From NCBI RefSeq assembly GCF_037975245.1, contig NC_092574.1:26520713-26584712 (forward strand): a stretch of DNA of 64,000 nucleotides, read 5' to 3'. This document shows positions 6,866-62,612 of the stretch, one piece after another. Numbering within the stretch: position 1 is the stretch's first letter; each line of letters begins with the position of its first letter. The stretch comes from Apostichopus japonicus (taxonomy: Eukaryota > Echinodermata > Holothuroidea > Aspidochirotida > Stichopodidae). The translations under genes and the position numbers were made by a program. Below the pieces are notes generated by a model, which saw only the letters and a program-made list of their open reading frames with translations, did not search any database and was not told the DNA's origin.

Positions 6866-9453
6866 AACACAAAATGCTGCTTTAATGTTAACAGCAAACT
6901 GGCTTTCTTTTCACTTCTGATTATTTGTTCTGACAGCAGATTGTTTCTCCAATATAAATACCTGTGTTTGAATTGCCAAACAAGCTTTTATGTTATAAAA
7001 AGATATTAGTCAGAACATACTTTGGAATATAAAATTGCATCATACAGCAGACCAGCAAAGTACAGGTTTGATTAGATCATGCACAGGATATATGTATTGT
7101 TTCAATCACAAAGGGGAGGAATCGAGGTAGGACAACAATATTTGAAAAACCTAGTCAATATAACGAAGTTGAGGGTCTTGTTGCTTGTAAAACCCAAAGA
7201 ACAAACAAAAGTAATTTTTGTTGTCACCCACAGATGCCCTTGATCCTATGGGTATAGTGGTAGGGGCAGGGGGAGAGGGATGGACAGTAGATTAATTTCT
7301 TTGTAGATTGTAATGAAATACCCTATGGAATCTGATCTTCATACCGGGAGGGGGTAAGGGAGGGGTCAAGGGTCAACTTGGGAACATTGCTACAATGTCA
7401 CCAGTTAATAGGCTTCATAAAAGGGAAAGTGCAATAGAAGCATCAAGACAGGTAATCGGGTAGCGTACAGTGTATACATAATAGACCTGTCAAACAGATT
7501 GCATTGATAGCAATTTTATATGGATAAATATGAATCTGGAAAGTGAAATATTGACTTCAGCAATCATGTAAGTGTTTTAAGGGAGGAAAGAGTGTAAAAA
7601 GAATGAACTGAAAACAGATTCCTTCTTTCAACTATTGATTGCATGGTGGAATATGACTGCCGTTCAGAAAAAAATTGTCACAATTATATCGTCATTTTGC
7701 GATAAATTACTTTAATCAATAGACAAGGAAGATCTGTGCTGTAATGTTCAGATGCAGAACACAACGCTATACTAACTTTATATAGTTGATTCAGTTTATT
7801 CAAATCCCAACCTTTAAACAGCCTCTTTTTCAATGCTTTCTAAAACAAAAACTATAGGCCTCACAGTTCAGGTTTCTCTTGCAAATAAATGCTGTTGGCT
7901 TTTTTTCTCTCTTTCCTCCCCCCCCCCCCCTTCTTTTTTTCCTGTTTCTGCACAGTACACTAATGGATGCACTGAACTACAGCTGACAAGACACATGTAA
8001 ATGCTTCAATTTTATGACAAGCACTTTACAGCGAGAGTTTATTCACTGAAATATCGCAAAAACCTTGTACAACTGGCTGGCTGGCTGGCTGGATAGATAG
8101 CAAATAAGCAGGCAGGCCTGGAAGAGACTGTAGAGGAATACGAATAAGAAGCTAAAGCAATCATTTTCACTGTCTCTCTATCTCTCTCTCTGCATACTAC
8201 ACAAGTTTGCACAATGACTATAGCAGAACACCTCTGCAAACTCTGTCTGAATCAAAGGTCAATCTATTTATAGCCTGCATTTTACAGGGGGTGATGCTTT
8301 TATTAAATGCATGAGCTGGAGAGTGAACAGGGGAAAAAAGAAATTATTCCAAGACAGAGAGAATTGTAAGGAGAGGGAATCATCATGTAATCAACTCCTG
8401 AATTGTGTTAGGCAGCAGGCAATTAGTAAGTAATGGATTTAAAGTTGTCACGAGATTAGGCAATTTAAAACAACAACCTTGCACTTGCTTCTTCTTTTTT
8501 TCTTTCATTTCTCAGTTTCTTTCTTTTTCCTCCATTTTTTTGAGGTTGTTAAAGTTACAGTTACATTCTTGTCATTCTTTGATGATAGTTTTAAACCATT
8601 AAAGTAAATCCTGATGACAAGGATATTTATGATGATTAAAGTTAACTGAACAATACAAAAAGCTACCCCTGTATTAACAAACTTTCTGTTACATGTTCTG
8701 CAAATGTTAGGTGAAAAAATTCATCCTGAACAGCTTGGTTATATTTTGAAGATATTTTAAATTTTATAATTTGATGAAGATTTATGAATGTAGACCTGAC
8801 AATAGCAGGGCAACTAAACTGAAAATGTTGTTTATTTTTAATTCTCGTGTTCAAATCACTTATCAAAAAAAAAGAAGAAAATAGTATCCTTGTAGACATG
8901 GTATCTGTAATTAGATGCTTTTACATGAGCATGGACAACTAATCATTCTAATCCTATGCTCTCACCACCACACGGTTGTTGTACATACAAAACAACAAGG
9001 GAGCCTGGGCATGACATCATCAGCCACTGGCATATTCCTTTCTGCGCCTTTCGCAGTAATTTTATAACAATATTCCTTAAATCTCGAGTACTACCCAGAA
9101 GAAGATACAAGCCATCAAATCAAGACAGCATCTGAGATATTTTTTATACTTATTGCCATATGAGATTTAATTATACTTCAGTTTACCAAGATGGATCATC
9201 CATTTGGTGTTACAAATTTTGACTTCCAACTTTTGTATTAATCTATCACGTACCAAATGGGACTCCAATTGTTCCTAATTCTTCGATTTTTTTTCTAGTA
9301 CTCATGAATGTTATGAAAACTTTATTATATCCAAGCTACTGATATTAACTGCACTATTTTAGGATTTTGGAATTTGTGTTTTATTATAGCAAATTAACCC
9401 CAAATCAGCAGAAATATGGCTGCGCTTGAAACTCATCATCCACACCCAATTGA
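6866..9453. other. non-genic stretch with simple repeats
   Basis: No gene was recognised. It holds a poly-C run (about 7918-7930), a (CTGG)n run (about 8070-8091), a CT-rich run (about 8170-8192) and a weak CAGGTAA-containing repeat match near 7448. Confidence 0.55.
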
Positions 9454-10104
9454 GAGGTGAAGAGTTCCTTAAGATGACACCCCACTAGAGAGGAGGTGAA
9501 GAGTTCCTCAGGTCTACACCCCACTAGAGAGGTGAAGAGTTCCTCAGGTCGACACCCCACTAGAGAGGTGAAGAGTTCCTCAGGTCAACACCCCACTAAA
9601 GAGGTGAAGATTTCCTCAGGTCGACACCCCACTATAGAGGTGAAAAGTTCCTCAGGTCTACACCCCAGTAGAGAGGTGAAGAGTTCCTCAGGTTGACACC
9701 CCACTAGAGAGGTGAAGAGTTCCTCAGGTCGACACCCCAGTAGAGAAGTGAAGAGTTCCTCAGGTCGACACCCCACTAGAGAGGTGAAGAGTTCCTCAGG
9801 TCGACACCCCACTATAGAGGTGAAGAGTTCCTCGGGTCGACACCCCAGTAGAGAGGTGAAGAGTTCCTCAGGTCGACACCCCAGTAGAGAGGTGAAGAGT
9901 TCCTCAGGTCGACACCCCACTATAGAGGTGAAGAGTTCCTCAGGTCGACACCCCACTACAGAGGTGAAGTGTTCCTCAGGTTGACACCCCAGTAGAGAGG
10001 TGAAGAGTTCCTCAGGTCGACACCCCACTATAGAGGTGAAGAGTTCCTCAGGTTGGCACCCTACTATAGAGGTGAAGAGTTCCTCAGGTCGACACCCCAC
10101 TATC
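9454..10104. repeat. 36-bp minisatellite, about 18 copies, one open frame on each strand
   Basis: The unit runs GAGGTGAAGAGTTCCTCAGG, then TCGACACCCCACTAGA. Because 36 is a multiple of three, one frame on each strand stays open through many units: EVKSSSGRHPTR on plus, and GCRPEELFTSLV on minus (171 residues, 9585-10100). The frames break where the GTCGAC core has changed to GTTGAC (9693, 9979) or GTCAAC (9583), which makes TGA codons. I see no splice sites or non-repeat flanks that would make this a gene, so I call it a non-coding array. Confidence 0.93.
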
Positions 10105-10371
10105 TGCCAATTTTATCAAATCACAAGATTTTTACATTATGTAAAAGTGTCACTGCGCAGCTATTAACATTGCATACATGCACTAAGAGAAACGAATCAT
10201 TCTTTCTTCTTAGCCATGAGTGTATTACATAACAACTTCATATCGATTCATATCGTCATCATTCAATTGTCAATGAAACAACCGTTCATCCAAGACTTGA
10301 GACGTTCTGAAATTCTTTTCGAAGGAATAGCACGGGCAACCTTTTTCTTGTCAAACCCATCTAAAACACAT

Positions 10372-20835: not shown

Positions 20836-21778
20836 GCCAGAAGGGAATCTGAACTCAAAATCATTGATTTGTGCTCAAACTCAAACTTGAAGAAGTTTGA
20901 AAATCCAGTTAGACATCTAGATGTATTAAAGTAAGATTAGGTCCCTGTACTCCCACATAAAGCTTTGCACAGTTTGTGGTCCTGACAGACTGACAGTAAC
21001 AAGGGGAATTTTACTTGTACTTAAGTCCTCATGATAATGTACCTTCACAACAAATTTGTGATACAGTGTCAAGGCAAATTAGCCATCAAACTGTATCTAA
21101 GTTACAGTATCTGTGAAAGAAGCTGAATGCTTCAGTAGTACTGAACACTGCATATTCTACATACCTACTACAGTTTAACTATATTAATTAGTAAAATCGC
21201 AGAAAGTCTGTGCAAGAAAAACTTACTATTTAAGCAACATGTTACTGTGAATTGTTATTAATTTGACAACTTTGAGGTTGCTGGTAGAGCACAGTAGTTG
21301 GTTTAAAGTGCCATTCCTCAACTACATGTACAGTTAAGGGAGCTAGATCTATCTCTCGGCTTCCAATGTGTGTCATAAGTAAGAAAAGGTTTGATGGGTA
21401 AAAAAAAAAATAGTGCAAGAAAAGATATAATGTACATCTTCTGAAGATAGGTAGTTTGTCTATTAAGTCCTTAATTAAAAATGTTGCTCCCTAATTTCAT
21501 GGAGAACAATGTTCTCACACAACAATAAATGTTTCCACAAATAACTGGAGCCCTTGTAAAGTTATCTATGAATGGAGTAATTGACTTCTGATGAATCACG
21601 GTGGTATCCACTAATGAACTGAAATCAGTAATCTTAGAAGCTAATGAGTGCTGATGACAAATGAAAAGACAATCAAGAGAACAGTTCAAAACAGAGAAAT
21701 ATGGCAAAAAAGAAGCACATGCAGGACTACACAAAATTCAAAATAAGTTTAAAATTAAAAATTAAAATTCATATTTAC

Positions 21779-23276
21779 CAAGCAGGAGGGGTCTTTTTTC
21801 AGCTGGGCTCTCCTCCAGCAGAAACTGGTCTCCCAGGAACTTTGCAGTCTCAGCAGATACGTGGACCTTTCCCGGTTCACCAGAAGCCTCCATCTTGTTT
21901 GCGATAGTGACATCATTTGACCAGACATCAAACTTGAAACGCCTGTTACCGATGATACCACAGAGGACGGTCCCTGTATGCACGCCTACTCTCATATTCA
22001 CCTTTTCTCCTTTGGCTTTGCAGAAATCTTTGATCGCATCAATCATTGTCAGACCCATCTTCACGCAGCATACCGCATGGTCCGTCCTGGACAATGGGCA
22101 TCCCGAAACGCAGTAGTAGCAGTCACCTAAGGTGCAAATCTTCTCGCACTTGTTCTTGACGCAGAGAATGTCAAATCGGCCAAAGAGGTCGTTCAATAAA
22201 CCCACCAGAGTCTCGGCACTTTTGTTGGCGCTCATCTGCGTGAAGCCGGCGATATCGGCGAACAGGATGCTGACATCCTCCATACGGTTCATGTAAAATG
22301 GCCGAAAGATAGTCTGCTTCCTTCCCCCTTCAGTCTCTGACCGGCTGAGCAATTCTTTTGCGATGGTGGTGGGCATAAGCGCATGAATGGTCAACTCCTT
22401 GACCTGCTTTTCTTTCTTATGTTGACGTCTCGCCACGATGGCCTCGCCTATCTTCATGAAAGTACTCCTCGTGCGTACTTGCGACATGAAGAATATATGG
22501 GTGCCCATGACGTGCACGCAGATGTGTAGTAACAGCTTGGTGATGATCTTCCCTGCCAGCATGTCTGTGTATTCCCTGACAGAGTAAAAGTACAAGACCT
22601 CGTAGACTACCGAGAAGACGATCATAAACAGAGCGGTCAACAAGAATGATATCGGCATGACTGTGTAGGTCATGAGAATCGTCTCCACGGCTAGCGCAAA
22701 CGTGGCGATGTTGCTCATGACTTGTCCATTGCATTGAGCACCTTTCGGATCATTCATGCTGAACACGGTAAACATCACTAACAGGCTGCATAGAATAAAC
22801 GCCAGGACAAAGGACAGGAATATAACACATTTCTCATAGTACTTAGTTGCTGTAAGCGCTAGTAATAACACACAGAAAGCTAACAAGCATCCCAGCGCGA
22901 TCTCGTAGTGAATCCAACGGCATTCTTTTAATGCCGGATCAAAGATCGGGTGCAAGGGTATGTATATAATCCAGAGAACGGTCACAAGTATAAAGTAAAC
23001 AAGCGAAGTTTGAAACCGCCTTCGAACCTGTGAAAAGCAGTTCTTCAGAAATTGTTGTTCTATGATCGGGGAATTAAACTTGGGATTCCACCAGGATCCC
23101 GAAGCTCTCTCAAATAACTTTGGACAGCATCCTGTCTTTCTATTTTTGCTCGCCTCTGAACTCCGTCTTCTTTGGCTCCTTGAAGACTCGGTTCTGTTTA
23201 GTCGCAGTGTGACGGCATCGTCAGCCGGCTTTTTGGACGGGTCAAAATGAACCTCTGTATCTGTTGCAGAATCCAT
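21779..23276 (-). CDS. ADCY9: ADCY9-type adenylyl cyclase, large N-terminal coding exon
   Basis: The product makes cAMP from ATP at the plasma membrane. Translating from the ATG at 23276 gives 499 codons plus one base. Residues 1-50 are a basic Ser/Arg-rich tail. PKLFERASGSWWNPKF (52-67) is characteristic of type 9 cyclases. Six hydrophobic segments lie within about 90-265. The C1a catalytic domain follows from about 330, with the metal-binding aspartates Asp341 (FADIAGFT) and Asp385 (LGDCYYC) and the conserved FKFDVWSNDV at 447-456. The exon ends with CTGCTTG|GTAAAT; reading past this donor gives only a few residues and a stop. A start further upstream was rejected because it would cross the splice acceptor at 23318-23319. 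C1b, the second membrane bundle and C2 were not found and probably lie beyond the left edge. The type 9 assignment is by remembered family sequence; cyclase identity is certain. Confidence 0.93.
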
Positions 23277-23319
23277 GATGCTGAATAAGCGGTATGGGTC
23301 AAATATCCTCGACAATTCT
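23277..23319 (-). other. ADCY9: 5' UTR segment and splice acceptor of the cyclase exon
   Basis: On the minus strand a pyrimidine tract ending TCTCTTTTGCAG (AG at 23319-23318) precedes 41 bp of untranslated sequence and then the ATG. So the large exon is internal and at least one upstream non-coding exon exists. Confidence 0.75.
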
Positions 23320-23984
23320 GCAAAAGAGACAAAAACCAAAACTGAAAAGGTTATTCTACATTCAAATAAAAAAGTTTATAAAGTTTATTTGATAAATTGT
23401 TTAAACGTACCCAAAGAATATATGTGGTGTGCAACAGTTGATGAGAATTCATCACATACAATAACTACAAACTGTGTGGTAATGTAAATTTAAGAACAAA
23501 AAAAAAAGCGACATAAATAATTAATAACACTTGATTGCCGATCTCATTGTTCACATGACCTTCCAGCTTTCTGTCTGAGTAAATTCATATAAATTAGCAA
23601 GTGATGGGTTAATTTGATTGGCTCCTTCGTGACACATGTACATCATCAAAGGGCAAGTTTTTCACATCAGGTTTACTCACATACAGTACAAACAGAAACT
23701 TGAAAAAAAATGAAACGTTTTAAATTTTCCTAATTAATTGCAGAGAAACTTGACCACTCACGCAATAAATTTGTATTATTGCTCAGCACCTTGGAGTTTA
23801 CTTTACTCGATGCAAAAATCCACTAACAATGCAATACAAAGCACAGTTCGAACTGATGGGAATTTTTTTCTAAATTCACGGCTGTCTGGCTTCTGAATTG
23901 TACCGTAGGTTCGCATGGAAGAGTGCCGGTGGGACCTTAGAGAGGGTCAACTGGGGTGCAATGCAAGAATATGGCCAGTTCCTA

Positions 23985-26119: not shown

Positions 26120-27105
26120 CTTAAAATAGATTATAAATTGACATCATACCAGCCATAGGAAACCAACTTAAATAAGGCAGCTTAATTTCCAATAATATTT
26201 GCATAGTTACAGGGTACTCAATATAAGATCAAAACTTATATCATGCCATAGTACTGTACCTAATGGTTACCTATGGTTCTCAAAATAAGATCATAAACTG
26301 ATATCATGCATTAGTGTACCTAATGGTTACCTATGGTTCTCAAAAGAACATTGAAAACTTATATCATGCCATACTGTACCTAATGGTTACCTACATGGTC
26401 ATCAAAATAAGATCATAAACTGATATCTTGCCATACTATACCTAATTGTTACCTTTGATTTTCAAAATATGATCATAAACTGATATCATGCCATATATAC
26501 TGTACCTAATGGTTACCTATGGTTCTCAAAATAAGATCATAAACTGATATCATGCCATAATGTACGTAATGGTTATCTACTGTACATGGTTATCAAAATA
26601 AGATCATAAACTGATATCATGCCATAGTACTGTACCTAATAGTTACCTTCATGGTTATCAAAATAAGATCATAAACTGATATCATGCCATAATGTACGTA
26701 ATGGTTATCTACTGTACATGGTTATCAAAATAAGATCATAAACTGATATCATGCCATATATACTGTACCTAATAGTTACCTTCATGGTTATCAAAATAAG
26801 ATCATAAACTGATATCATGCCATAATGTACGTAATGGTTATCTACTGTACATGGTTATCAAAATAAGATCATAAACTGATATCATGCCATATATACTGTA
26901 CCTAATGGTTACCTTCATGGTTATCAAAATAAGATCATAAACTGATATCATGCCATAATGTACGTAATGGTTATCTACATGGTTATCAAAATAAGATTAT
27001 AAACTGATATCATGCCATACTGTATCTAATTGTTATCTACATGGTTATCAAAATAAGATTATAAACTGATATCATGCCATACTATATCTAATTGTTACCT
27101 ACTGT
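26120..27105. repeat. 61-68 bp minisatellite with dimeric higher-order structure
   Basis: About 15 copies share AAATAAGATCATAAACTGAT followed by ATCATGCCAT, then a variable tail around TGTACCTAATGGTTACC. Between about 26530 and 26990 two tail types alternate (ATACTGTACCTAAT and AATGTACGTAATGG), so the effective period is about 132 bp. Single degenerate units lie at the edges, for example near 25995 and 26130. Confidence 0.93.
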
Positions 27106-27309
27106 ATGGAAGAGAAACCAAACAAAGATCATACTGTACACCAATACCATAGGTGTTACCTAATGAAGCAAAGTATAGCAACTTAAACTTTCAAGTTTAA
27201 CTTTTGTATTGTTAGCGAACTAGTGTAAACTAAATATAAGATTATAAGGGATTATAATAAGAAAACAATCCTATTGTTTAACACTTTAGAATTCAAAATA
27301 AAATAAAAC

Positions 27310-44988: not shown

Positions 44989-45209
44989 ATGGGTCATGCG
45001 CTGAGGAGGTTCCGCCATGATTCCCCTCACTTGCCGAGATTCAATCCAAGGAGGAGTGGGTTGACGGAGAAATTCCCCGACCTGAATGAACTTCCACCAG
45101 AATTAGCTATTTTAATTCTATCAAACCTAAATGCAACTGATCTATGCCTCGCCATGTGCGTCAATGATTTCTGGAGGCAGCTTGCCATGGATGACCTACT
45201 TTGGCAAGG
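44989..45209 (+). CDS. FBXO8: FBXO8 coding exon 1 (start codon, F-box)
   Basis: It encodes residues 1-73 plus two bases of Gly74. It ends TGGCAAGG|GTTGGT. An acceptor (TTTCCTCTTTAAAACAG, ending 44980) just upstream shows that a non-coding 5' exon exists. The alternative donor at TTG|GTGTTA is rejected because only the chosen one restores WQGLC across the junction. Confidence 0.93.
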
Positions 45210-48200
45210 GTTGGTGTTATTGCTGATATCAATGAATCATTTATTGTTTTACATGTTGCATAGTAATTCTGACTTGTCTTGATTTTCTTAGTACTGTAGA
45301 AATAAAAACAAAACAATGGTTTTGTGTACATATTTAGTCTGTTGTACATCTTGAATCAATTCAGTCATATTCAGGGCATAATTTATCCAGCATTGCATCA
45401 TAAAATGCTATTAAAAATGGTGAAGTTGCCATACAAGAATAAAGATTTATAGCAGTTTTTCTAACATAGGATCTACAGTATTAAATGAGAGAAAAAAATC
45501 AGAGCATTCAAAAAAGCTACACAAAATTTGAACACTAAATTATTCCCTCGTATTTGCATATATTTTGCGATGTGATTCCGAATGAATCAGTCCGAGACTT
45601 CTGATACAATACTTATTCTTGGTTACATGATTACATTTGAAACAAAGGTATTTAGAGGTAGAAATCTCACTAAAATGATACAAGTGAATCATTTTCCGAT
45701 TTAAGTCTAATATTGGAAGTAATTCAATGACTTCTAGATTAATTGAAAGTAATATTTAATGGACAGTGTTGCTGAGTATCAAGATGTTAATGTTCAATGT
45801 TTTGATACACTCGCTTGTTAAATTTGCAGTTTGAATTGTAGAGCTCTGTGAGTTTTCACTGATCACTTGCTAAGTCCTCGAAAGAGTTTCACTTTGATAG
45901 AGGTGTCGTTTCATTGGTTCTTTTTATTGGTTTTGAAAGGATTCTTGAAAAGTACAGATCGAGGAATAATTTTAATAATTTGTAGTTTTATTCAAAGTCA
46001 TGAAATGCATTTGTTTTCTTTTTCTTGGCTATTTTGAGAGGTCCTGATAAAGAGTTTATATTCTTCTCCTCTCCCAACCCCATACTTATTTAGTTTGTGC
46101 TATGCTACGTGGGGTTCAGTTTCGGCGTACCACAAAAAGAAGGATGCAAACTTTTCCTACAGAGAACTTTATCAGAGACTTGATGACCACTCCCTCCTCT
46201 TCAACTGGAATGCAGAACTGGTAAGCACTATATCCCTGAGAATCACTATTCCTTTCCTCATCACCCTCAATATGAACATAATATAGGCATTTGTAGTCAT
46301 GAACCGCAGGTCATTGCACGGTCGGTTGGCTTCGACTGCTAGTTGAGAAATTGCTACATTTCGTGGTTGGTTCCCCGACCGAAGTCCACCCGACTTGATA
46401 CTCGGACGTAGCCCTAAAACGATGCGCACACAGTTGATTGTGGACCATGTTCCATGTTACAACTGTCGAGTTGAGTCTGACCATGTTAGTTGAGCAGTGT
46501 GCAAACAGGTATTAATAGTCTCGATGATTTCATTCAAAAGTGTTTCCCAATGTTAAAGAAAAAGAAGTAGTAAGACCTGATTATTTGAGTAAAGAAGCTT
46601 AACATTGTTTTGGAGGGACTGAAGGAATTGCATGACTAATAAAAGGTTCTAATTACACAACAATCACATCTGTGCCTTATTGTTGGGACATTAAAATCTG
46701 CATTGTTCTAAAGAGAATGACATTTCTTTGGGGAAATTAATTGTGTTTGTGTGTGAAGAATGTCATTGAAAAAAATAATTGGATCTGTGCTGTTAAGTTG
46801 GAACTTCCAATTCCACAATGGTTATAAAGAATGACATTTCTTTGGGAAAATTTAAGTTGGCAAATATGTCTTTTTATCAATTGAAAGAAATGTAATCGAA
46901 CAATAATTGAATCTGTACCTTTTCAGGGCATTGAGTATTTGCTTCGTGACGGGATCCTCAACAATGACCCAAAGGCCATCGCATATTTCATCAATTCAAC
47001 AAACCGTCTTGACAGGTCACAGGTCAGACGGTTTGTAACAGGAAGGTAGGTGGTGTAAATTTGACTTTACTAATTATTATTTATTGATTAAGAATTGATT
47101 AAAGAAGCATATTGGGTGTAGTTTGTAGAACAAATCAAATTTGAAATGTCCCCCTTTATATGACACTGTGATAAAAGCCTATTTAATGCTGTTAGTATTT
47201 GTAGTTTTCCCTAGTATGATTTATTAATCCTCATCTGTCCATTATTCTTTACGTTTAAAGCAGCTTTTTGTGGAGAAAGTCTCAAACTGTAGAAACTTCT
47301 TTATGACAAAACCAAAACCAAATCTTTTGCTGAGAATTTGCGAATGCATGTAGGCATCGTGGGCACTCATTCTCTATTCAAGCAGTGACACAATCATAAA
47401 AGCACTGAGACATAGTCAATTGTCTTCTTTACCTGGATGAGAAAAGTTTACCTGGGAGAACAGAACAATGACCAATTTGTTTCCTTATTGTCTGTGGCAT
47501 CAAGTGTAGTTTTCTGCATTGCATTGTGGAACTTAAGGAAGGAAATGATCGTGTTAGCTGATGAGATAAGTATTCTTTAAGATAATCTTTTAAACTTCAT
47601 ATCTGATGTCATTTCTTTCTCAGAGAAATTCAATGTTTAAAGCAAGATTAAGCATTCCGTTTCTAAAATTTGTTTTTTAGACAAGAAGTTCTGGATGAAT
47701 TAATAAAGTTAGATAACTACACGGACAAGATGTTACCCATTGCCCTACGTTCTTTTTTCGCTAACGTGGAGTCTCCGTTCCTCCACGGTAACCGGCTGCA
47801 AGTGCTGCTGGAGAAGTTTGCCGAACGGTACCTTGCGTGCAATCCACAATGCAGATTGACTAAAGGTACTTTTATTACGTCGTCATAGGCTAAAGCCTGA
47901 TATTATTTAACAGCAAAAAAAAAAAACGTTATTATTTATCATATTGAAATGATGCTCACTGACCTTTATATTGTGTGTGTAATATCTAAATGTTTACACT
48001 GTTGCTTCTAGAAAGAGTTTAGGATTTCAGGAGTCTAACGATTAATGAAAATATGTCAAATCATCAGGTATTAAATTAATCACTGATCACAAAAGCAACA
48101 GTTGATTGCAGGACAGACATGCAAATCACAACTGGCTTATGCATGTTTGCTGTCTAAATTGTAAGTTAGGCTTTGATGAAATAAATCTAAGCAGAAACAT

Positions 48201-49308
48201 CTGTATGGCAAACTTCAACTGAATTCCATGAGGGTAAGTGATCGCCCAGAACCTTAGCAACCATTCTGGATGACAAAATGCAATTTTTATTTGTAAACCA
48301 GGAAGTTTCCAAATATGTGATATCAAAAGTCTGGATTGATTTGACTATCTTTCAGTTTTAAGTATCAGTTACAATACTGTCACAGGCCCCAAAATTGAGG
48401 CTATTTAATGAGTAAATGCCAGTGGGTTTCACTGTTTTACACCAGTAAAAGGAAAAACACTTGTGTTTTACTGTTAGTGCCAAATTAATATTGCTTTTGT
48501 ATCAATTTAGGGAAAATGCTAGTGAGAATTTGAGTTTAGCCAGTATATCTTTTTTGCACTGAATTCTTTTAGCAAGTGGTTAAAATTGGGAAAATTCAAG
48601 GCCTGTGTCCCAGGAAAGATATCTTATTATAGTTGTTGTTGTCATATCATTGAGTTGAGCCCAACAGACCTGTAGTTTTTGCTGCCATAGTCAAGTTCCT
48701 TTCCTTTCTTGATTACAGACGGTATCTGTGTCCCAGGAAGGATATGTTATTATAGTGTTTTTTGTTGTTGTTGTTATCATATCACTGAGTTGAGCCCAAC
48801 AGACCTGTAGTTTTTGCTGCCATAGTCAAGTTCCTTTCCTTTCTTGATTACAGACGGTATCTGTGTCCCAGGAAGGATATGTTATTATAGTGTTTTTTGT
48901 TGTTGTTGTTATCATTGAGTTGAGTTGAGCCCGACAGACCTGTAGTTATTGCTGCCATAGTCAAGTTCCTTTCCTGTCTTGATTACAGACGGTATCTGTG
49001 TCCCAGGAAAGATATCTTATTATAGTTGTTGTTGTCATATCATTGAGTTGAGCGCAACAGACCTGTTGTTATTGCTGCTATAGTCAAGTTCCTTTCCTTT
49101 CTTGATTACAGACGGTATCTGTATTCTCTGCTATTCATTGATATTACTGTCTATTGATCTGACCAGTCCTCACGTCAAGAATAAAATGTCCAAGAGGGAG
49201 TTCATCAGGAATGTTCGGCAGGCCACGGCCGAGGCGGATGATGAGCTCTCTGGCCACATGTTTGATAACATCTACCTGGTGGGCCACATTGCACCACAGA
49301 AATGGTGA
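44989..49308 (+). CDS. FBXO8: FBXO8: F-box and Sec7-domain protein, whole coding span
   Basis: Five coding exons, 44989-45209, 46094-46220, 46927-47045, 47681-47865 and 49112-49308, join in phase with GT-AG junctions to give 282 residues. Residues 32-75 form the F-box (ELPPELAILILSNLNATDLC), which binds SKP1 in SCF ubiquitin ligases. Residues from about 100 to the end form a Sec7-like domain; its last exon contains DLTSPHVKNKMSKREFIRN, near-identical to vertebrate FBXO8 as I recall it. The human protein is somewhat longer (about 319) at the N terminus. Vertebrate FBXO8 is reported to restrain ARF6 by ubiquitination. The residue at the usual catalytic glutamate of Sec7 exchange factors is His191, so nucleotide exchange activity is doubtful. 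The start is chosen because MGHALRR aligns with the family start and follows an acceptor (CTCTTTAAAACAG). A promoter was not located. Confidence 0.95.
46094..46220 (+). CDS. FBXO8: FBXO8 coding exon 2
   Basis: It encodes the end of the F-box region and the linker (LCYATWGSVSAY through LLFNWNAEL), residues 75-116. Acceptor TTATTTAG; donor CTG|GTAAGC. Phase 0 at the end. Confidence 0.93.
46661..46926 (+). repeat. degenerate threefold duplication at the 3' end of FBXO8 intron 2
   Basis: Blocks ATCTGTGCC, ATCTGTGCT and ATCTGTACC lie at 46668, 46783 and 46911. GAATGACATTTCTTTGGG occurs at 46715 and 46829. The period is therefore about 114-128 bp. Only the last copy keeps a good acceptor (CCTTTTCAG). 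Confidence 0.65.
46927..47045 (+). CDS. FBXO8: FBXO8 coding exon 3
   Basis: It encodes residues 117-155 plus two bases of Arg156 (GIEYLLRDGILNNDPKAIAY onward), the start of the Sec7-like domain. Donor GGAAG|GTAGGT. Confidence 0.92.
47681..47865 (+). CDS. FBXO8: FBXO8 coding exon 4 (Sec7 core)
   Basis: It encodes residues 157-217 plus one base of Asp218. EKFAERYLACNP (200-211) aligns with the conserved Sec7 helix after the glutamate-finger loop. The loop itself reads ESPFLHGNRLQ, without the usual glutamate. Acceptor TGTTTTTTAG; donor TAAAG|GTACTT. Confidence 0.93.
48601..49122 (+). repeat. tandem array of four copies of the FBXO8 intron-4 3' splice site
   Basis: Each unit (135, 135 and 123 bp apart) ends TTCCTTTCTTGATTACAG followed by ACGGTATCTGT, which is the first 11 bases of the last exon. 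The third copy reads TTCCTGTCTT. Acceptor AGs are at 48717-48718, 48852-48853, 48987-48988 and the authentic 49110-49111. Joined to exon 4, the three upstream sites would reach in-frame stops at 48808, 48916 and 49081. Confidence 0.95.
49112..49308 (+). CDS. FBXO8: FBXO8 last coding exon with stop
   Basis: It encodes residues 218-282 (DGICILCYSLILLSIDLT onward) ending HIAPQKW and TGA at 49306-49308. An ATG-like open frame starting at 49102 lies in the intron and is not the start. The authentic acceptor is the last of four near-identical ones. Confidence 0.94.
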
Positions 49309-50035
49309 TAAAAAGCTTGTGTTTTCAGAAACTAATTTCCGTCAGTATTCTTTCTTTGATTGTATCAATTTATTTGGCCACATGTACAGTAAAACAATTC
49401 AGTAGTCTGTGTGGCATACCCATGAACATAGGAGATGTGATTAGAGGGGAGGGGAAGGGGGAGGGGGAGGGGAGGATATCGGAGTGGAGTTGAAATTTGT
49501 GACTGGTGTCAAGTAGAGAAAGGAGATTAGAGGATACAGATTTTAAGATTGTGTGCTTCCCTCTTACTCAAGGCAAGAGACCGTGGTGCTCGGTCGATTG
49601 TGGTTTTTGACATTAGACAATACTTCCTCAAACCCCTCCCCCACCCCTCTCTACAAAGACAGTCGAAAATTGCTTTGCTATGTGCATGGGTACAACTTTA
49701 CGGACACAGCTTATGTTTCAATGCTTACTTTGTAATTAGTCATTGTACAGAACAACCCCTATTCATCATCTCCAAACAATGCAACCAGGTTTACAGAACC
49801 AACGACATCCTTGAAAGTATCACAAATACATTAATTGTGAAACCAATACATGCTGGATATATTCCTATAAAGACACATAACTGCCAAAATGATCCTAAAA
49901 GAGGCTTGCAACTTGCATTCAAAAGAAAATCGTCAGAGTATATTTTAAAGTGCTTTAATCCCAATCAAAAGAGGTGATGAAAAAATCTATTACCCTTTTA
50001 AGAGGCAAATTGATATATATACTTAAGGTCTTTAG
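49309..50035 (+). other. probable FBXO8 3' UTR with G-rich tract
   Basis: A run of GGGGAGGGGAAGGGGGAGGG continuing to about 49476 (from 49447) could form an RNA quadruplex if transcribed. A 142-codon open frame (49549-49977) has no recognisable domain, begins at a non-ATG codon, and I found no splice link to FBXO8. No clear AATAAA was found close to the stop. Confidence 0.45.
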
Positions 50036-50172: not shown

Positions 50173-51201
50173 GTAAGTTTATTGTTTTAGGAAGAATCTA
50201 AGTCTTATTTTGCCAATTTTGATAATTACTTGTACATAGCCATTGTTATAACAGAGTAATTATGTTATCAGTTGATCACTAGAGCCGTCTGTTGGCCTGC
50301 TGACATATTATTTGATTATTACAAACTTCTTGAAGTGAAACCTTGAAAATTGTTTGGAAGTGTTTGTGGTGGGCAACAAAGAACATTAAAAAATAATTAA
50401 AAACATTGATTTAAGTGTTAAGTTTCTTAAATTACCTTTAGGATTGTCTTTGTTGAAGTAATTAGGTATTCAGTTTAAAATGAGATTTAATTGGTTAGTA
50501 ATGAGGAATCATTTAGACAAGAATCTCACCAATTAGATTTCTGCTTTGTTTTGAGCTTATCAAAACAGCTTGTACTTGAAATGATTTCAAAAAGTTTCTG
50601 TTATTTCTCATATTTTAGTAAATATGGCTTCAGAACAAGAAATTGATGGACTGTATTTTTTCATAAAATTATAATTAATATCAATTATTATCTGTGTTGT
50701 CCTAAAGTTAAAATTGGGTGTCATTTGGATAACCCTGAATGCCACTTTCAGCAGTTTTCCATTTTGTTCCCCAGCTTCTTTTTTTTTTGGGGGGGAGGGG
50801 GGTGGGGGAGGGTGGCTGGTAGAAGTTGCAATGTATTTTAAAAGTACGTTTAAATTATTTGGCAGGAAATTGTTATTAGCCTCAACATTGTTTTTAGCCA
50901 TCATAAAATGTTGGCTCCTTTTTTTATTCTTTACATCAATATTTTAATCAAATCTGTTAAGTTAATTTATTCATTATGTGCATTGCATTGCCAAGATTTT
51001 GTTGTTAATTCATGAAATGAAAAACGTTCAGATTTTAGTTTATTTGACAAGCAGTCAGATGGAGATTTTGCAACTTTACATTAGACTAAAACTCCAGTCA
51101 AAGTCTTCTGATTTTATACCTTTCAGGGGTTCTAAAAGTTTGAAATGTAGCTAATTGTAAGTTGATAATTTTTTATATTTTTTATTTTTTCTGAGGGACA
51201 G

Positions 51202-61213: not shown

Positions 61214-61430
61214 TGTTAATATATACGTAAGACCTTAATATATACGTAAGACCTTAATATATATACGTAAGACCTTAATATATACGTAAGACCTTAATAT
61301 ACCTTAGACCTTAAGATAAACGTAAAACCTATATACATAAGACCTTAATATATACGTAAGACCTTAATATATACGTTAGACCTTCATATATACGTAAGAC
61401 CTTAAGATATACGTAAGACCTTAATATATT
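61214..61430. repeat. 19-bp minisatellite, about 11 copies
   Basis: The unit is ATATACGTAAGACCTTAAT, with small length changes in the TA stretch and a few point variants (TTAGACC, AAAACC). Confidence 0.95.
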
Positions 61431-62376: not shown

Positions 62377-62612
62377 TCTATTCAATTACACTCTCAATTA
62401 AACTCATGTCTTTGCTTGCTTGAAGATTAAAACAAATAAACTTTAAATATTCCTTTAACCTCCTATTCAATTTCACTCTCAATTAAACTCATGTCTTTGC
62501 TTGCTTGAAGATTAAAACAAGTAATCTTTAAATATTCCTTTAGTTGGTCTATTCAATTACACTCTCAATTAAACACATGCTTGAAGATTAAAACAAATAA
62601 ACTTGAAATATT
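62377..62612. repeat. 86-bp direct repeat, three copies
   Basis: Copies start CTATTCAATT(A/T)CACTCTC at 62378, 62463 and 62549. They share TTGAAGATTAAAACAA and AAATATTC. The third copy lacks a 15-base segment containing TCTTTGC. Confidence 0.92.

Follow-up and report, generated by a model that had tools for sequence, protein, structure and literature searches.

The last intron of an FBXO8-like gene, in the 64,000-nucleotide stretch of DNA analysed here (the window), ends in four head-to-tail copies of its own splice acceptor (48603–49122). We think it likely that this array is a 'mirage', a minisatellite lying across an intron–exon boundary, which would be near-neutral and would leave the distal acceptor as the one mainly used. 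The array consists of four units, each carrying the acceptor and 11 exon bases, and it matches the description of lancelet mirages in every feature that can be tested here. That the acceptor had been amplified into four tandem copies was first claimed in a sequence-only reading, which placed the array at 48601–49122; the end of that span stands and the true start is 48603. The features are collected in Table 1.

Table 1. Positions of the FBXO8-like gene model, the acceptor array and neighbouring features in the window
Feature	Position	Strand	Comment
FBXO8-like gene model	44989..49308	+	Predicted coding exons joined; F-box-like and Sec7 matches
Coding exons	44989-45209, 46094-46220, 46927-47045, 47681-47865, 49112-49308	+	FBXO8-like model
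Exon 4	47681..47865	+	Donor AAG/GTACTT at 47866, common to all four acceptors
Dispersed element, old, ~220 bp	48383..48605	+	Right end adjoins array; 39 of the 43 genome matches listed fall here
Array copy 1	48603..48729	+	Decoy acceptor 48719
Array copy 2	48726..48864	+	Decoy acceptor 48854; type B, 12 extra bases
Array copy 3	48861..48999	+	Decoy acceptor 48989; type B; one T>G in pyrimidine tract
Array copy 4	48996..49122	+	True acceptor 49112; the only copy that then runs into Sec7-coding sequence
Donor-like GTATCT	48722..48727; also 48857, 48992, 49115	+	Three bases past decoy 48719; score -0.36
In-frame stop TAG	48808..48810	+	After decoy 48719
In-frame stop TGA	48916..48918	+	After decoy 48854
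In-frame stop TAG	49081..49083	+	After decoy 48989

Results

Gene model and predicted product

The five-exon model, predicted from the genomic sequence, ends in a TGA codon at 49306–49308 and encodes a protein of 282 aa with profile matches to an F-box-like domain (3.2e-12) and then to Sec7 (1.5e-33), the combination in a single protein that marks FBXO8. FBXO8 is described as one among six Sec7 families of mammals (PMC1950683), and ARF6 has been reported as a ubiquitination target of FBX8 (PMC3694991). A protein search of the genome (671,581,487 bases in 35 contigs; 12 candidates scored) recovered all five exons of the present gene and, besides them, one weak Sec7 match on C9 (5.1e-4). Neither a second FBXO8 copy nor an mRNA retrocopy, the latter sought as a record of splicing, was found in this search, which does not prove their absence.

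The first ATTAAA after the stop codon lies at 50385, and the normal 3′ UTR is probably already long. Splice sites were scored with a matrix built from human frequencies. By this measure there is a donor-like site at 49279 within the last coding exon (2.15) and a strong one at 50173 in the presumed 3′ UTR (7.72), so that a 3′ UTR intron starting from one of these is possible. The top donor-like site among the 134 GTs at 47600–49400 is 48234 (GAGG/GTAAGT, 6.39, against 1.68 for the exon 4 donor); it lies in the last intron and could mark a cryptic upstream exon.

Anatomy of the array

The + strand of the whole window has four occurrences of the intronic sequence TTGATTACAG, ending at 48718, 48853, 48988 and 49111, and the − strand has none; the spacings between the acceptors are 123/135/135. 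Tandem Repeats Finder reports a repeat at 48632–49122 (period 135, 3.7 copies, 91% matches, score 798), a signal well beyond chance. Copy borders were set in the register of the junctions, with neighbouring copies overlapping by the 4-base CTGT, and this gives units of 127–139 bases, each of which closes with the last acceptor and 11 exon bases (ACGGTATCTGT). The final four of these exon bases are CTGT, which is also present at the left flank. The amplified unit thus includes the pyrimidine tract and the first 11 exon bases in every copy, as the sequence-only reading had it. It had also called the decoys almost identical to the true site, and indeed copies 1, 2 and 4 are identical across the final 43 columns of the alignment, of which 32 are intronic and 11 exonic, so that 48719 and 48854 match 49112 over 43 bases, while copy 3 differs from the others in those columns by a single T>G. 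Over the 127–139 aligned bases the copies differ pairwise at 4–12 positions, and they are mosaics, their 5′ halves being typed A-B-B-A (copies 1 and 4 vs copies 2 and 3).

The 12 extra bases of type B form a U-rich insertion (48755–48766 in copy 2 and 48890–48901 in copy 3) that lies about 36 nt past decoys 48719 and 48854 and is missing past 48989. It might, as a guess, be a binding place of U-rich splicing repressors.

Origin and genomic setting

The left flank reads GGC-CTGT-GTCCC and the right flank TAT-CTGT-ATTC, and all three internal junctions are the hybrid TAT-CTGT-GTCC; these junctions fit the signature of a tandem duplication over the 4-base microhomology CTGT. In the history that we propose, a segment of about 125–135 bp, starting at the right edge of the dispersed element and extending 11 bases into the last exon, would have been tandemly duplicated via CTGT and later expanded to four copies, the acceptor being carried along by accident. 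At least two expansion steps would be needed, because copies 1 and 4 differ in type from copies 2 and 3 with their 12 extra bases. The left end of the array falls within about 3 bases of the right end of the element; among 15 fetched copies of the element the match ends at 48601–48609 in eight and earlier, at 48579–48593, in seven. The element is unclassified, is present at 39 places among the matches listed and has inverted ends like CAGGCC...GGCCTG. Inspection by eye of 15 copies out of the 39 listed gave no convincing target-site duplications.

The window is rich in arrays, minisatellites of period 30 or more making up 5.3% of it compared with 1.1% of 110,616 bases in other gene regions sampled, a density nearly five times higher. 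The base-rate sample held 71 exon matches from 18 regions (11 of the 15 listed for Sec7, 10 of 134 for kinase and 50 of 69 for HSP70). An array covering an exon start was seen in none of the 71 (95% upper bound 4.1%), it being noted that several of these exons come from duplicated gene pairs and are not independent, and that their starts are the starts of model matches, so that some arrays were possibly missed. Two of the 71 were preceded, within 150 nt, by an array, and those arrays stop about 80–100 bases short of the apparent acceptor. A near miss of the FBXO8 case is found in an HSP70-family gene (− strand; region L021, 2367–2847), where a 99-bp minisatellite of 3.7 copies ends about 80 bases upstream of the apparent acceptor, which stays outside the array.

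Further arrays in the window are at 1–928, 26218–27106, 61216–61429 and 62378–62579, with periods of 65, 62/133, 19/91/110 and 85, and at 9445–10102 there is a 36-bp minisatellite of 18 copies. The latter overlaps an ORF on the − strand (9585–10112) that is open over 175 codons and encodes a repeat of 12 residues resembling GCRPEELFTSLL; the Pfam matches of this frame look like repeat artefacts, with no stretch passing alone. A 537-codon open frame on the − strand (21762–23375) matches an adenylate/guanylate cyclase domain (6e-59) and, weakly, an adenylyl cyclase N-terminal profile, which makes it a probable membrane adenylyl cyclase exon.

Strength of the competing splice sites

The four array acceptors take ranks 1–4 among the 94 AGs at 47880–49300, three of them scoring 8.77 and one 6.98, with the next candidate at 4.99. 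As three sites are equal in strength, the order of the sites and the sequence downstream of them must decide between them. Donors in this gene score low (exon 4 as given above, predicted exon 1 -0.42), and a low score is compatible with use, since the predicted exon 1 donor itself reaches only that value and the matrix is human. Within the array the best donor motif is ACG/GTATCT (-0.36) and the next scores -3.3. A cassette exon inside the array was considered and is unlikely with donors as weak as these, and the weakness of the motif means that use of a decoy would most simply give a terminal exon extension.

Sequence beyond the acceptors was scored with a 4-mer model for which 71 exon matches and 65 non-exon stretches from the same genome served as training data, the FBXO8 exons not being among them. 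In the reference sets exons have a mean of 0.207 (sd 0.162, n=71; these are also the training exons) and intron pieces a mean of -0.235 (sd 0.187, n=681). The first 100 nt past the true site score 0.054, above 94% of the 681 intron pieces and low for an exon, just 14% of exons scoring less. The values past the decoys are -0.349, -0.285 and -0.208, at or under the lowest 1% of exons. The sequence is thus intron-like after the decoys and exon-like after the true site.

Normal mRNA would on this account be made from the distal acceptor, and the upstream three, of equal or near-equal strength and with intron-like sequence beyond them, would be used rarely. This expectation follows from the fact that 49112 alone leads into exon-like sequence, and from the lancelet precedent. 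Some leaky decoy use is possible because human 3′ sites show some upstream preference. This preference holds overall for 3′ sites at least 20 nt apart, as described for internal exons, and between near-equal sites it is strong in short introns and significantly reduced, without vanishing, in long ones (PMC9225289). The decoys bear no sign of selection: of 11 variable events, one lies within the 43 columns on the splice side (P = 0.10, a test of low power), the events having been hand-counted from the copy alignment, with the 12-base indel counted as a single event and a block of 5 columns as another.

Predicted products of decoy use

Joined translations bear out the earlier statement that transcripts spliced from exon 4 to the decoys would read DGICV... 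and stop in frame at the three codons listed in Table 1. These stops lie 225–498 bases ahead of the normal stop, and the predicted proteins have 247, 238 and 248 aa, of which 221 residues are native (217 before the junction, then DGIC) and the final 61 native residues are lost. In the first decoy product the F-box is intact and the Sec7 match is cut from profile positions 7–178 to 7–125 (of 183), its score falling from 116.4 to 62.9 bits. In an alignment with BIG1 (3ltl), the missing part falls on a stretch that we take to be Sec7 motif 2.

All four acceptors lead into the last coding exon, and the gene model has no exon junction downstream of the decoy stops (the donor-like sites at 49279 and 50173 lie there), and classical nonsense-mediated decay of decoy mRNAs is therefore unexpected. 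Under the last-exon rule, stops in the last exon predict escape from decay, although the junction model is described as accurate for only about half of human escape (PMC10534055), and decay via long 3′ UTRs also exists (PMC2689704). Decoy mRNAs would then give C-terminally truncated proteins of 238–248 aa rather than classical decay targets.

Discussion

Alternative readings of the array

If the decoys were used at real levels, their frames could give stable F-box proteins without the Sec7 end, possibly dominant-negative. The retained F-box and the partial Sec7 match are in keeping with such isoforms, but the novel tails are Cys/Leu-rich, unlike between copies and unconserved, and we regard alternative C-terminal isoforms as improbable. 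No better placed is the proposal that the upstream acceptors win outright, so that little full-length FBXO8 is made and the array is a hypomorphic mutation segregating in the species: proximity and the weak exon 4 donor point that way, whereas the long-intron effect, the exon-like context of the distal site and the lancelet precedent all favour 49112.

The sequence-only reading had suggested a poison array, in which splicing to the decoys yields unproductive mRNA and thereby lowers or tunes FBXO8 output. The decoys match the true site in strength and are followed by in-frame stops, which would suit this, since in poison exons and unproductive splicing the use of an alternative site leads to an early stop, and early stops are what the decoy products have. 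Classical tests, as quoted in PMC9225289, show a preference for the nearest acceptor, decay through a long 3′ UTR would be available (PMC2689704), and the strong donor-like site at 50173, if used, could supply a junction downstream. A 3′ UTR intron there would, however, place the normal stop ahead of a junction too, and the decoy stops lie within the last coding exon, where the last-exon rule applies (PMC10534055). With intron-like sequence after the decoys, no selection signal on them and lancelet mirages that reportedly leave splicing undisturbed (PMC3087553, PMC3902484), the claim of poison sites finds no support and we rate it a little below the two preceding readings, low-level regulation through the decoys being possible. 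The other function offered for the array, that it enforces strict use of the distal acceptor, gains nothing from it, as the array gives no explanation for such strictness.

A decoy acceptor with the following ACG/GTATCT could in principle act as a frame-preserving 3-nt microexon, misuse being re-spliced stepwise to the true exon. GTATCT is the best in-array donor and scores close to the predicted exon 1 donor, and insertion of ACG would keep the frame at a cost of one Asp per step (K-D-D-G-I-C). If true, this would produce FBXO8 forms with 0–3 extra Asp just ahead of Sec7 motif 2, the truncated forms being leakage, and minisatellite copy number would set the isoform mix, which would explain the tolerance of such arrays. 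The donor is weak, though, and known ratchet points have the AG directly on the donor and also make use of a cryptic exon that carries a donor itself (PMC8605326), while the array reads CAG-ACG-GTATCT rather than AG/GT, which makes this recursive ratchet very unlikely. Least probable of all is an assembly artefact, for although tandem arrays are classical trouble spots and a single assembly was used, the copies differ by 3–9% with private variants, and the A. japonicus assembly, if it is that one, rests on HiFi reads with 64x coverage (PMC10344927).

Comparison with known systems

The neutral mirage reading is strengthened by the lancelet cases, which are reported as harmless to normal splicing (PMC3902484); RT-PCR of a lancelet globin gene and data on Adh3 likewise suggest that regular splicing is unaffected (PMC3087553), though results from lancelets may not transfer to this lineage. 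The lancelet minisatellites lie across intron–exon boundaries in genes that include Adh and globin and are unstable in length (PMC3087553), with further cases in Adh, troponin C and PGBD5 (PMC3902484). According to the sections cited they share with the present array a similar unit size (150–160 bp in BflGb6), coverage of the intron 3′ end and the exon start, several copies with preserved acceptors, 81–100% identity and interior copies more alike than those at the edges. The present array differs in lying in another lineage, probably an echinoderm, in another gene and in the last intron, in holding just 11 exon bases per unit and in its visible 4-base microhomology. A search of the open-licence literature, covering 15 of 66 matching papers, turned up no mirages from outside lancelets, which is no proof that none exist, and in the sections of PMC12783039 that describe intronic minisatellites we found none spanning a boundary. 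If the genome is that of an echinoderm, boundary-spanning minisatellites are not confined to lancelets, and this bears on intron gain.

In the potato RdRp gene, where an intron was gained by tandem duplication (PMC4974935), the duplicated segment included the branch region, the pyrimidine tract, the 3′ splice site and the start of the exon, as here. In potato it also took along a GTAAG donor and two putative enhancers, and a new exon and intron resulted, whereas the present unit took in only 11 exon bases and its sole donor motif is weak. Multi-copy duplications of this kind are mentioned for fission yeast in the same paper (PMC4974935). Recursive ratchet points resemble the array in having a donor-like motif close behind an acceptor (PMC8605326), and differ from it in that three bases intervene here, the donor is weak and the intron is 1.2 kb. 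As for poison exons, decoy use resembles them in leading to an early stop and departs from them in that the stop lies in the last coding exon.

Competing splice sites are usually unequal in strength, which masks the effects of order and exon content. In the array three acceptors share the same 43 bases, leaving position and downstream sequence as the only differences, so that it is a natural test of the choice among identical splice sites, at the terminal exon of a gene that gave no second copy in the protein search. An experimental counterpart is the 1986 competition of Reed and Maniatis, in which the upstream 3′ site was chosen (quoted in PMC9225289): there too proximity and exon sequence served as the cues in a contest between rival 3′ sites, whereas here the competition is natural, has four sites and a terminal exon, and the distal site alone is productive.
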